This document shows, piece after piece, positions 3,830 through 8,317 of a stretch of DNA of 8,317 nucleotides. The stretch spans positions 1-8,317 of the forward strand of contig JAJNDJ010000168.1 of assembly GCA_021156345.1 (NCBI GenBank). The letters run 5' to 3'. The notes beneath the pieces are model-generated. The model saw only the letters and a list, made by a program, of their open reading frames with translations. It was not told the DNA's origin and did not search any database. A program made the position numbers and the translations under genes. This stretch comes from Rubrobacteraceae bacterium. GTDB taxonomy: Bacteria > Actinomycetota > Rubrobacteria > Rubrobacterales > Rubrobacteraceae. Every line of letters starts with the position of its first letter. Position 1 is the stretch's first letter.

Positions 3830-4276
3830 TCACCTAGTGTGAGCTGAGGGGTTGCTGTCCCGGCTCCGGGGGGTCGACTCGGGACGGGCGATGCGCCCGC
3901 GACCGCCGTTACGCCACATCAAGAAGGCCACGATGAAAGCCCACACGGCAAACAGAAGCAGGCCCACCACTTTGATGTTCGACGGGAGGAAGCCCTCGTA
4001 GGCCACCATCACAGCGCCGTCGTACATGAACGAGGCCCCGGAGACCGCGGCCACCAATCCCACCAACCGCGGGTAGACCCTACCGAGCGCGATGGCCACT
4101 TCGAAGATAAAGAGGGTCAGCCCCGCGAGGAAGAACGTAGCCCTTTCCCCACGATTTGTTCGTCAGGCAGTGCGTTCTTGCCCGTGGACTCCCACCAGGG
4201 CGACGCTGCCGACCATCATGCCGGCGCCTGTCGTCACGAAGACGGTAAGAGAACCGGAGGCCGACGCCGTGGGCAC
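3830..4276 (-). pseudogene. Broken multi-helix membrane protein
   Basis: The longest open piece starts at GTG 4099 (89 codons), with helices around LVGLVAAVSGASFMYDGAVM and VVGLLLFAVWAFIVAFLMW and a basic, polar tail. That start has no Shine-Dalgarno sequence and cuts a helix in half: the same frame continues upstream as ATFFLAGLTLFIFEVAIALG back to an in-frame TGA at 4163-4165. Beyond the stop the frame stays open, with another hydrophobic segment (GSLTVFVTTGAGMMVGSVAL) and a possible GTG at 4276. The whole reads as a small polytopic membrane protein interrupted by one stop. It resembles the uncharacterised integral membrane proteins common in actinobacteria, but I cannot name the family. 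If the 89-codon ORF is expressed it would be a two-helix protein. Confidence 0.5.
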
Positions 4277-4304: not shown

Positions 4305-5117
4305 TTATGCGCGCGGAGTGGGCTCCGAGCGCGGCGCGTCCGGCCCCGGCTCATCGAGATCGTCCTCGACCCCCTTGAGGAGGACGGCGTTGACGGCCAC
4401 GATGATCGAGGAGACTGACATCAGAAGAGCAGACCACTCGGGCCTGAGCATGATGCCGTAGGCTGGATAGAGCACCCCAGCGGCGACCGGGATCGCCAGC
4501 ACGTTGTACACCGATGCCCACACCAGGTTCTGCTTCATCTTCCTTACGGTCGCCTTCGAGAGCACGACAGCGCGGGTAACGTCGATCGGATCGCTCCTCA
4601 TAAGGACTACCTTCGCCGTCTCGATAGCGACATCGGTGCCCGCGCCGATGGCTATGCCTATATCCGCCCGGGCTAGGGCCGGGGCGTCGTTGACTCCGTC
4701 TCCGACCATCGCTACCTGTTTGCCCTCCCTCTGGAGCTGCTCGACGTAGCGTGCTTTGTCGACGGGGAGCACCTCGGAGAAGACGCGCTCTATGCCGAGT
4801 TCGCGGGCGACGGCCTCTGCGGTTCTCTTTTTGTCGCCCGTGATCATAACCGCCTCTATGTCCATCTCCTCGAAGCGCCTGAGTGTCTCGCGTGCGCTGG
4901 GCTTGATCGTGTCCGCCACGGCGACGAGTCCGGCGGACTCTCCGTCCACCGCGACGAACATCGGTGTCTTACCTTCCTGCGCAAGTGTGATGGCCCGCTC
5001 CTCCAACGGGAACGCATCTATCCCGCTCTCGTCCATCAACTTGATGTTGCCAACGAGCACGGAATGACCGTCCACCTCGGCCCGGATGCCGTGTCCAGCA
5101 ACAGCCTCGAACCGTGT
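4305..5117 (-). pseudogene. copA: C-terminal third of a second Cu(I)-exporting P-type ATPase
   Basis: Family similarity begins near 5117 (TRFEAVAGHGIRAEVDGHSV) and runs to the TAA at 4305-4307. The only convenient start is GTG 5075, which gives 256 residues against roughly 750-800 for the family. Numbered from there, it keeps the end of the nucleotide-binding domain, TGDK (79-82), GDGVNDAP (125-132), and the last two helices with the copper signatures Tyr190-Asn191 and Met219-x-x-Ser222-Ser223. Missing are the metal-binding domain, helices 1-6 with CPC, the TGE loop and the phosphorylation motif DKTGT, so alone it cannot pump. It is not the lost tail of the ATPase at 6147-7883: both cover the VLVG...AGLVAVAD segment with clearly different sequences. 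It lies last in the copper cluster. Confidence 0.85.
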
Positions 5118-5246
5118 AGCTGGTCTGCGTGATGAATGAAGGCTGCCGCCAGCAACAGCGCGAGCGGCCGCGCCTTCGTAAGAAGTGTCTTCAAGAAGAC
5201 CCCCTATTTCGTGTGGTGTTCGGGTTGAGTCTCGCTTGCTCCGACG
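5118..5246. other. 129-bp junction between the His-rich protein gene and the truncated copA
   Basis: Where the first two thirds of the second ATPase should be, there are only about 130 bases. They hold a short perfect palindrome, GTCTTCAAGAAGAC (5187-5200), and no sequence resembling the family in any frame. A GCTCCG/CGGAGC stem (5238-5256) spans the stop codon of the neighbouring gene. This is the scar of the deletion that removed the front of the second ATPase. Confidence 0.45.
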
Positions 5247-5624
5247 TTACCGGAGCGAAGAAGTCTTCAAAGCCTGAACACCTGAAGGACGGAATACGGC
5301 AGCTGCCCAGCGAAGGACTGCGGACCGACGCAATCCGAGCCAAATCTTTAGCCACATGCCTTTGGCCAACAAGCTCACGAGCAGTCCAAGGAACCCTGCG
5401 ACCACGGCGAAATACTCGGTGCTCGTCGCATGGCCCGCCGGGTGCTCGTGCGTGTCGCCCGCCGTCCCGACTGCGGCGTGGTGCTCCGCCGCGTGCCTCA
5501 CACCACCACTGCACCCCGGAGAGGCGCAGAGCAGGTGCAGGGATCCGAAGACCCCGTGGCAGAGCAATAGTGCTCCCACGAGGAGGAGCGGTGTGATCTT
5601 CTCTCTAGTCGAGTGGTCGATCAC
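5247..5624 (-). CDS. His/Cys-rich two-helix membrane protein of the copper cluster
   Basis: 125 residues from GTG 5624, chosen because GAAGGA lies just upstream and the start is only 8 bases after the copZ stop. The frame stays open further upstream, but that part is copZ read out of frame. Helix 1 is about residues 11-33 (TPLLLVGALLLCHGVFGSLH) and helix 2 about 71-97 (YFAVVAGFLGLLVSLLAKGM). The loop between them, about 37 residues, is rich in histidine (44, 48, 49, 59, 61, 65), and Cys22, His23, His30, Cys33 and Cys38 cluster near helix 1. A short basic tail follows. I do not recognise the family; the layout recalls small actinobacterial His-rich membrane proteins such as DUF6153. A role in copper binding or hand-over at the membrane is inferred only from composition and from its place between copZ and copA. 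Confidence 0.65.
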   Translation of the reverse strand: MIDHSTREKITPLLLVGALLLCHGVFGSLHLLCASPGCSGGVRHAAEHHAAVGTAGDTHEHPAGHATSTEYFAVVAGFLGLLVSLLAKGMWLKIWLGLRRSAVLRWAAAVFRPSGVQALKTSSLR

Positions 5625-5632
5625 GCTGTCCT

Positions 5633-5842
5633 TCAGGCGGCTACACTGTAGCCGGCTTCCTCGATAGCACCCTTGAGATCCTCGGTGCCCACCGTACCCT
5701 CGTCGTAGGAGACCTCGACGGTTCCCCTTGCGACGTCGGCGTTGGCCTTCTCCACACCGGGGAGCTCGTTCAGCTCGTCTTCGACCGCAGCCTTGCAGTG
5801 CCCGCAGCTCATGCCCGGTACGTTGAACGTCTTCTCGGCCAT
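5633..5842 (-). CDS. copZ: CopZ-like heavy-metal-associated copper chaperone
   Basis: 69 residues making up one complete HMA domain. Cu(I) would bind at PGMSCGHC (Cys13 and Cys16), and the fold ends with the usual AIEEAGYSVAA. Such chaperones carry Cu(I) in the cytoplasm to CopA and to the CsoR repressor. ATG 5842 is preceded by GAGGAG seven bases upstream. It lies 32 bases after csoR and 8 bases before the His-rich gene, so it is very likely cotranscribed with both. It looks fully intact, in contrast to the two neighbouring ATPases. Confidence 0.95.
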   Translation of the reverse strand: MAEKTFNVPGMSCGHCKAAVEDELNELPGVEKANADVARGTVEVSYDEGTVGTEDLKGAIEEAGYSVAA

Positions 5843-5874
5843 CGTTTCTCTCCTCGCTCTGCAATGAAAAACGT

Positions 5875-6174
5875 CTAAACCCTCAGGAACCGCTCGACGG
5901 CGGTAGTGAGCTCCTCTATCTTCTCGTCCGCTTCCATTCCGCCGTTCTCGATGGATTCCCTGACGCAGTGCTCGACGTGGTCCTTGAGCAGGATGGTGCC
6001 TACCTTCTCCAGGGCGGAGACGACGCTCGCGATCTGAGTCAACACGTCCACGCAGTAGGCTTCCTCGTCGACCATGCGCTGCACCCCCCGCACCTGGCCC
6101 TCGATCCGCTTGAGGCGGTTCTCGAGCAACTCTTTGTCCTTGGCTTTTATGTAGCCGTTCGTGGCCCCCTCCAC
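5875..6174 (-). CDS. csoR: CsoR-type copper-sensing transcriptional repressor
   Basis: 99 residues of the DUF156/CsoR family, all helical. It opens with [20 protein letters not shown] and [10 protein letters not shown]. The Cu(I) ligands Cys41, His66 and Cys70 are all present with the 25 and 4 residue spacing of known copper CsoR proteins, which argues against nickel (RcnR), formaldehyde (FrmR) or sulfide (CstR) sensing. When copper binds, such repressors leave the operator and release the efflux genes. The only usable start is GTG 6174, which has no good ribosome binding site and lies inside the last 28 bases of the truncated copA. The deletion that cut copA seems to have removed the normal upstream region, so csoR may now depend on coupling to copA translation. 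The protein itself looks functional. Confidence 0.93.
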
Positions 6175-7883
6175 TGGGTTCGCGTGACCTGGAGCCCTAA
6201 AGAGTGCAGCCGCCCGATAGCTTCCCTGGACTCGTCGCGCACCACGTCCGCTACCGCCACGAGCCCTGCGGGCTCGCCATCCACCGCGACACAGATAGGG
6301 GTCTTGCCCTCTCGCGCCAGCTCCTCACCCCTCTGGGCGAGGCCGTCCTCGGAGACGCCCGAATCGGAGAGAAAGCGCCGGCTGCCCACGAGAACCTTGC
6401 GACCCTCGACGCGAGCGCAGATGCCGCCGACCGGGACAGCCTCGAACGCTTCGAGTTCGGCGAGCGGAAGTCCGCGGTGCGTGGCAGCCCGGACTATCGA
6501 CTCCCCAAAGGGATGCTCGCTGCCCCTCTCGGCCGACGCCAAGAGCCTCAAGAACGCTTCCTCGTGCATCCCATCTAAGACGACCACGTCGGTCAGCTCG
6601 GGGGTGCCTCTGGTGAGCGTGCCGGTCTTGTCTAGCACCACCGTGTCGAGCTTGTGGGCCCCCTCGAGGGCTTCTCCGCCCCTGATCAGAATCCCCGATT
6701 CGGCGCCCTTACCGGTACCGACCATGATCGAGGTCGGCGTCGCCAGGCCCATGGCGCAAGGGCAGGCGATGATCAGGACGGCCACCGTGTTCAGGAGCGC
6801 GAACGTGAGGGCAGGTTCGGGTCCGAGCAGCAGCCAGACGACAAACGTTGCGGCGGCCACGGCGATCACACCCGGCACGAACACCGCGCTGATCCTGTCA
6901 GCGAGATGCTGGATTGGGGCTTTCGACCCCTGTGCCTCCTCGACCATTCTCATGATCTGGTGAAGAGCAGTATCCTCGCCGACCTTCGTAGCCGTGAAAC
7001 GGAACGACCCACTGATGTTCATGGTCGCCCCGATTACCTCGTCGCCCTCGCGCTTGGTGACGGGGATGGACTCGCCCGTGATCATCGACTCGTCCACCGC
7101 AGACGCGCCCGAGACAACCCGCCCGTCCACCGGCACTTTCTCCCCCGGCCTGACCACGACGACGTCCCCAACCTGCACGTCCTCGAGGGGCACGTCGAGC
7201 TCCTCGCCTTCCCGCACTACGCGAGCGGTCTTCGCTTGAAGCCCAGCGAGCTTACTTATTGCTTCGTTGGTGCGTCCTTTCGCCCGGGTCTCTAGCAGAC
7301 GCCCCAGCAAGATCAGGGTGATGATGAGCGCCGAGGTGTCAAAGTACACGTCCGCCCTGTCAGCCGTGAAGAGCCCCGGCGCGAGCGTCGCCACCGCGCT
7401 GTAGAGGTAAGCGGCGCTGGTCCCCATGACCACCAGCGTGTTCATGTTCGCCTGCCCGTTCCGGAGCGCCCCCCACGCCCCCCGGTAGAACCGCCGGCCG
7501 GCCCAGAACTGTACCGGTGTGGCGAGCCCGAGTAGCACAAATGCTAGCCACATCATCGGTATCGGAGGCTCGAAGCCGAGCATCATCGGAAGGCTGCCGA
7601 CGAAGATGAGCGCCGTGAGCGCCGCGGCGAGGATGAAGTCCGCTTTGAGCTCCTTGTATTCGCGCTCGTGGGAGTCCTCTGCAAAAGACTCCTCTCCCCG
7701 AACCACACCGTAGCCCGCCCCCTCGACTGCCTTCTCCAGATCACGCAGCTCCACCTCGCCCGTTAGGTACCCGACCGTAGCCTTCCCGTTGGCAAGGTTT
7801 ACGCTCGTCTTCAAGACACCCGGCACCTTCTCGAGGGCCCGCTCGACCCGCCCCACGCAGCTAGCGCACGTCATCCCCGTCAC
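6147..7883 (-). pseudogene. copA: Cu(I)-exporting P-type ATPase lacking its C-terminal third
   Basis: Residues numbered from GTG 7883: HMA domain with GMTCASC (3-9), six helices between about 82 and 385, actuator motif TGES (269-272), the copper motif CPC (374-376), phosphorylation motif DKTGT (418-422) and SEHP (455-458). After [10 protein letters not shown] (residue 566) the sequence leaves the family, adds 12 unrelated residues and stops at TAA 6147-6149, just where TGDN should follow. The P-domain end (GDGxNDxP) and helices 7-8 are absent; 578 residues against about 750-800. The 5' end is also odd: the first HMA strand ([10 protein letters not shown]) lies upstream of the GTG with no start in frame, while GTG 7908, with GAGGAG at ideal spacing, is one base out of frame. 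It leads the copper operon. It could only work if complemented by another ATPase piece. Confidence 0.85.
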
Positions 7884-7919: not shown

Positions 7920-7972
7920 GGTCTTTTCCGTGCCGTTCTCCTCACCTTCACGCTCGACTGAATCGACCTTAT

Positions 7973-7999
7973 ACTATACCCCCCGACCCTATATCTCAA
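7973..7999 (-). promoter_or_regulatory. Candidate sigma-70 promoter of the copper operon, with possible CsoR site
   Basis: On the minus strand, TTGAGA (7994-7999) and TATAGT (7973-7978) are separated by 15 bases, slightly short of the ideal 17. The spacer is a G-rich tract, so the element reads TATAGGG-TC-GGGGGG-TATA. CsoR operators are G/C tracts bounded by TA steps placed over promoters, so this is a reasonable place for one, but the arms here are not a true inverted repeat (both are G-rich on the same strand). Nothing else promoter-like was seen upstream of copA. Confidence 0.45.
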
Positions 8000-8001
8000 G
8001 T

Positions 8002-8317
8002 TTGCCCTGAGGCGCTCCTTGGCCTTGCGTAGCTCAACCTTCAACTGAGCGAGGCGCTAGCAGCAGAGGTTCTTGAGTTCCACCTACTTCAGGTGCTTGC
8101 AGACGCAGTTGCTCCAGTTACACCCTGCTAGCCGCCCCGCTGGCCAGAAAGTCCTTTACCCCCCGAGCGCGATGTATCGGAGCGCCGTCCTATATGACGA
8201 GCAGCTTGCCTGGGACCCGTCGCAAGAGATGCCTCAAGAAGCGGTGACCTGACTCGATAGTGTCTTCTCCATAGTGGGATTCGTTATTCCCAAGTCTTTA
8301 GATCGTCACGCTGAGAT
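8002..8317 (-). pseudogene. Decayed IS630-family transposase (continues past window edge)
   Basis: Read on the minus strand from about 8273: YGEDTIESGHRFLRHLLRRV, then PGKLLVI-stop-DGAPIHRARGVKDFLASGAA, SRV-stop-LEQ, and after a break in frame CKHLK-stop-VELKNLCC-stop-RLAQLKVELRKAKERLR. This is the order of the DDE catalytic core and C-terminus of IS630 transposases, where WDGAPIHR carries the second acidic residue; here the Trp codon is TAG (8190-8192). The stretch that normally holds the third acidic residue (LNPVE region) is missing between about 8086 and 8118, together with a frame change. Stops at 8118-8120, 8084-8086 and 8057-8059 confirm that it is dead. No terminal inverted repeat is recognisable, so the element boundary is unknown. 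Confidence 0.8.

Follow-up and report, generated by a model that had tools for sequence, protein, structure and literature searches.

The closest described counterparts of the locus analysed here are the copA-csoR-copZ copper operons on plasmids of Rubrobacter marinus (NZ_CP045122) and R. tropicus (NZ_CP045120), which share gene order and homologous genes with it. CopA proteins of the P1B-1 subclass of P-type ATPases carry the motifs TGE, CPC, DKTGT, HP, TGDN and GDGxNDxP, and the regulator CsoR carries a Cys-His-Cys ligand motif. The window (the whole stretch of DNA analysed, 8,317 nucleotides of contig JAJNDJ010000168.1 from a Rubrobacteraceae bacterium, assembly GCA_021156345.1) differs from both operons in that its copA lacks the last 178 residues and its csoR lacks the start, the two losses meeting at one junction; the last third of a second, CopB-like ATPase gene follows copZ and a gene for a small His-rich membrane protein. 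We interpret the locus, with a probability of about 0.9, as a copper operon in decay (copA, csoR, copZ and the His-rich gene) from a Rubrobacter-like actinobacterium, and the two half-pumps are most likely non-functional parts of an ordinary decaying gene cluster.

A class-wide search of 39 genomes yielded 25 relative loci, one per genome; the two plasmids, which are also the best plasmid records for the CopA piece (73.9% for R. marinus and 71.0% for R. tropicus), are not independent of them. In all 25 loci csoR lies within 400 nucleotides after copA, and in 19 of them copZ is found within 400 nucleotides of csoR as well (two of the remaining six loci end inside csoR). In 24 of the 25 loci copA is full length and its last helices carry the letters YN. 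The complete set of six motifs was found in 20, four others (L122, L127, L128 and L134) deviating only at TGE and L087 because of its missing helices. This last case, from genome G381 (L139/L087), resembles the window in that a copA beside csoR is without its C-terminal helices, but the deletion is smaller and at another site, and the csoR start is kept: in L139 (G381:C5, about 5160-5330) the sequence jumps after GDGINDAPALAQADVG to C-terminal codons of copA out of frame, and the last two helices are gone. It looks like an independent event, unless the contig is misassembled. A split two-gene ATPase layout, for which the first-pass annotation had proposed to look in related genomes, occurs in none of the 25 relative loci, and near-identical haplotypes were the sole place where the same pieces turned up. 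Of 583 relatives of the CopA piece in genome contigs, the best 80 were all 45-56% identical and too distant for use, and a scan of viral contigs gave two distant relatives only. A literature search, made largely by listings, evidently brought up no report on a split P-type ATPase of this kind or on a truncated copA with csoR.

The first ATPase piece is a 578-codon open reading frame (ORF; 6147-7883, minus strand). By Pfam it encodes one HMA domain, an actuator domain and the beginning of a hydrolase domain, and its translation shows the P1B-1 motifs TGE, CPC, DKTGT and HP. What a P1B-1 pump has further on, namely TGDN, GDGxNDxP and the two final helices, is missing. Native CopA sequence stops at residue 566 (SLGLQV), DNA homology to the copA of genome G365 (L136) ends at 6186, and homology in the csoR frame (ANPVEGAT) begins at most about 3 bases from that end, the junction base being known to that range. 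The interior of copA is fused to about codon 9-10 of csoR, and the C-terminal part of the CopA P-domain, the last two helices and the csoR start have been lost. The nearest named CopA, the complete protein P0003 (“heavy metal translocating P-type ATPase [Rubrobacter sp.]”, 751 amino acids), is 95% identical and continues for 178 residues beyond the break. The simplest history would be one deletion that removed these residues together with the start of csoR. Direct repeats that could have mediated it were not found at the junctions; the strongest pair (4911-4985 / 6246-6320, 76%) is a homologous stretch of the two ATPases and lies away from them. At its other end, the copA start position reads ACG, in contrast to GTG in the copA of G365 (the nearest relative with DNA), and the frame contains no ATG, GTG or TTG from the upstream stop (7974-7976) to the GTG at 7883. 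The window CopA has one HMA domain (7720-7883, minus strand), as P0003 appears to have; that of G365 has two.

The homology of csoR to its relatives starts within their N-terminus, directly after the copA break; its original start and the codons next to it have been lost. The remainder keeps the PF02583 fold and, as read in the translation, the Cys-His-Cys copper-site residues; its best NCBIfam match is RicR, under the cut-off of that family. Counted from an internal GTG it has 99 codons, compared with 111 amino acids in P0241 (a close relative, 95% identical), and among the best 120 of 2961 database matches 90 have 109-112 and three have 100-102 amino acids. No clear ribosome-binding site precedes this GTG, and one relative, P0250, starts at nearly the same place. 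The adjoining copZ is a complete gene for a single-HMA-domain protein. Upstream of copA, the box GGGGGGTATAGTATA has one match in the window against 0.04 expected (at most 3 mismatches), and boxes of this type, within the same tolerance, occur in the 700 nucleotides upstream of copA in 21 of the 25 relative loci. CsoR operators are described, in the portion of the source available, as pseudopalindromes containing G-tracts (PMC3902906), and the box is a putative operator of this kind. The His-rich gene has relatives, as weak matches, in 15 of the 39 genomes, directly after copZ in two (G311, L176; G329, L150) and after an ATPase gene in another (G055, L178); its product matched no Pfam or NCBIfam family.

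The second ATPase piece is a 256-codon ORF (4305-5075, minus strand) that comprises the C-terminal part of the hydrolase domain and, by eye, the terminal membrane stretch. Its nearest relative in the 39 genomes is the G365 copy (L135), with 85% protein identity over residues 2-184 and 83% in the DNA homology, which starts at 5114. By comparison about 553 N-terminal residues are absent; the piece begins in the N-domain and has neither the complete actuator and phosphorylation domains nor the DKTGT of a CopB-like Cu ATPase. In G365 the N-terminal part of the gene is present, whereas the window has the last third only; the G365 contig is without csoR, the preceding gene is one that we take to be phosphoketolase-like, and the contig ends inside the ATPase gene. 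Named relatives among the database matches listed are mostly labelled Cu2+-exporting ATPase or P-type Cu2+ transporter (this search admitted proteins of 0.55-1.75 times the length of the piece, so that full-length ATPases fall outside it). The metal-site motif of the G365 relative, in a region missing from the window piece, is CPD and not CPC, and because of this we assign the piece, which appears to be part of a CopB-like ATPase, to no subclass; the motif of the P1B-3 subclass is CPH. No ATG, GTG or TTG is available as a start save an internal GTG at 5075, which codes for a conserved valine (88 of the aligned relatives have V). GDGVND is kept, and the TGDN site reads TGDK, a position occupied by N in 119 and by T in one of the best 120 of about 8000 matches (the CopA list has the same scope). 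P0121, the same 256-residue piece on another contig, has TGDN; TGDK is thus not common to all haplotypes. Upstream of the CopB-like piece, after the His-rich gene, lies a short signal-peptide-like frame, MKTLLTKARPLALLLAAAF (5118-5246, minus strand); it had no match among the 25 rows shown and may be the 5' end of a different gene joined to the remnant of the ATPase.

Residues 480-566 of the first piece, 87 native residues, are covered by the second piece as well, and this overlap aligns with 45% identity over 98 columns, the out-of-frame tail included; they therefore stem from two genes. The first-pass annotation had seen much of this: a first copA that ends before TGDN and lacks GDGxNDxP and the last helices, a second that lacks everything before the end of the nucleotide-binding domain, an overlap of about 85 residues between two paralogues, and intact copper-binding residues in CsoR all agree with our results. 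Its intact csoR-copZ core holds for copZ but not for csoR, and its statement that the pieces jointly contain every motif of a pump fails at TGDN, which is absent from the first and TGDK in the second.

The truncated ends recur outside the window. P0001 (578 amino acids, cluster of 12) and P0002 (575 amino acids, cluster of 6), for which contigs of 6127 and 12298 nucleotides are given, have a junction tail identical to that of the window and differ from it otherwise at 2 (start residue aside) and 4 residues, respectively; P0121 (cluster of 16, contig of 28954 nucleotides) repeats the 256-residue C-terminal piece. Since the same cut ends are found in proteins of other contigs, they are not a one-off assembly error. 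For the window codons and a transition/transversion weight of 2, the expected ratio of nonsense to missense changes is 0.032, and the 8 missense changes fixed on the truncated lineage correspond to 0.26 expected stops (probability of none 0.77; indels are outside the model). With so few changes since the cut and about 0.3 stops expected, the open frames, offered by the first-pass annotation as a hint of function, are uninformative, and the length of an open frame is generally a poor guide to function where a gene was truncated recently. When position 1 of P0001 (the start residue) and the last 12 residues (the junction tail) are left out, 6 of the 8 substitutions fixed in the truncated lineage gave residues that none of 115 relatives has, while the figure for the sister lineage with the intact gene is 0 of 5 (Fisher p 0.02), a pattern that hints at relaxed constraint without proving it.

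We favour decay because csoR follows copA in 25 of 25 relative loci with copA full length in 24, and P0003 is complete; because the junction lies in csoR, the copA start reads ACG, TGDN has become TGDK and the second piece has no start save an internal GTG; because the same truncated ends occur in P0001, P0002 and P0121, and a flanking gene and a transposase are broken too; and because of the excess of unseen states (6/8 versus 0/5). A single deletion would have created the copA-csoR junction, neither ATPase fragment could then be phosphorylated and cycle, and the locus would export no copper, any copper pumping falling to an ATPase encoded elsewhere in the genome. The main reason why copZ, the core of csoR and the operator-like box survive would be that the loss is recent, and perhaps these parts retain some residual value as a copper buffer. 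A dead locus, as one of the options of the first-pass annotation had it, is borne out for both broken pump genes and the damaged 5' end of csoR, but not for copZ and the His-rich gene, which look whole.

Several observations weigh against this interpretation. Besides the wholeness of these two genes and the retained csoR core, a short CsoR may be viable, to judge from the relatives of 100-102 amino acids (3/120 listed) and the start of P0250. The truncated pieces persist in several database haplotypes, one of which (P0121) keeps TGDN, and some product could arise from ACG as an unusual start codon or by reinitiation at GTG. The substitution contrast was picked after seeing the data, follows a majority rule and not a tree, counts position 210 on both sides, and vanishes when singletons are added (6/9 versus 6/16, p 0.23). 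As an example of operon decay the locus is ordinary but clear, a single junction having cost the pump its end and the repressor its start. In G381, a second Rubrobacteria genome, the same end of a copA next to csoR has been lost separately, a hint of recurrent loss there.

The alternative that survives best, though we consider it unlikely, is a partial function in which the products of csoR, copZ and the His-rich gene, perhaps joined by the metal-binding domain of CopA, would act as a pump-less copper sensor and buffer. It is consistent with the complete copZ and its good ribosome-binding site, with the retained csoR core and operator-like box, and with the short CsoR forms in 3 of the 120 listed relatives; furthermore, a short N-terminal CopA product is reported from E. 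coli as a putative chaperone (PMC5009743, in the part of the article available). It is at odds with a csoR that has lost its native start and has no obvious ribosome-binding site, with a chaperone whose pump is broken, and with ACG at the copA start position. An assembly artefact, in which two intact ATPase genes were collapsed or mis-joined, is very improbable: related ATPase genes can mislead assemblers, but the identical junction tail in the non-identical P0001 and P0002 and the same C-terminal piece in P0121, on separate contigs, led us to reject it, and the sole strong repeat between the ATPases is away from the junctions.

Scarcely credible, finally, is the proposal of the first-pass annotation that the N-terminal part of CopA and the C-terminal part of the CopB-like protein assemble in trans into one working Cu ATPase, since, for all that the pieces jointly span the length of a pump, overlap, are open, recur in other contigs and include TGDN in P0121, the halves belong to different ATPase types with the break midway in the phosphorylation domain, the C-terminal half reads TGDK in the window, credible starts are lacking, neighbouring genes are broken too, none of the 25 relative loci counted has the layout, and open frames would be expected anyway (0.26 stops for 8 missense changes). 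For haplotypes with TGDN (e.g., P0121), a hybrid two-gene copper pump, whose halves would meet in the membrane and share the split phosphorylation domain, is no less far-fetched. Further inactivating changes, which that annotation had named as telling against assembly in trans, are present in the window halves, though P0121 keeps TGDN.

Table 1. Positions of the remnants and genes of the copper locus and of its damaged neighbours in the window
Feature	Position	Strand	Evidence or remark
CopA remnant, native part	6186..7883	-	HMA, actuator domain, CPC, DKTGT, most of N-domain; Pfam HMA, E1-E2_ATPase, Hydrolase
Out-of-frame tail of copA piece, overlaps csoR ORF	6147..6185	-	P0001 and P0002 with identical tail
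copA / csoR junction	6185..6186	-	End of copA homology and start of csoR-frame homology
csoR, 5'-truncated, 99 codons from internal GTG	5875..6174	-	PF02583
copZ, complete copper chaperone gene	5633..5842	-	HMA; TIGR00003 above cut-off; AGGAG before ATG
Gene for small His-rich membrane protein, GTG start, apparently whole	5247..5624	-	
3' third of CopB-like (Cu2+-exporting-labelled) ATPase gene	4305..5117	-	TGDK for TGDN
G-tract box GGGGGGTATAGTATA, CsoR-operator-like	7970..7984	-	Upstream of copA; putative function
copA start codon position, reads ACG	7929..7931	-	Aligned with GTG of G365 copA
5'-truncated hypothetical membrane-protein gene, C-terminal part only	3830..4133	-	Homology to G388/L171
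Decayed transposase remnant with stops	8007..8243	-	DNA homology to L172, L173

Damage extends to both sides of the copper genes. The hypothetical gene downstream of the CopB-like piece has 89 codons; over query positions 1-79 it matches, at 71% identity, the C-terminal portion of an open frame of 175 codons in genome G388 (L171). DNA homology to that frame begins at 4133, and the N-terminal part is missing. A 63-codon frame before it gave low-complexity matches only. On the other side, L172 and L173 contain longer frames to which the transposase remnant, presumably IS630-like, is 69-70% identical in DNA (237 bases in the window versus 272), and the transposase region upstream of copA (7985-8317) contains stops in all three frames.

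Two further genes lie on the plus strand. The gene for a sigma-70-like factor (780-1679) has an ATG at position 1005, and its frame stays open upstream as far as 780 or beyond; this extension looks sigma-like by eye and contains no common start codon. It is followed by a fused methionine sulfoxide reductase A/B gene (1746-2798) with PMSR and SelR domains, which is open throughout.

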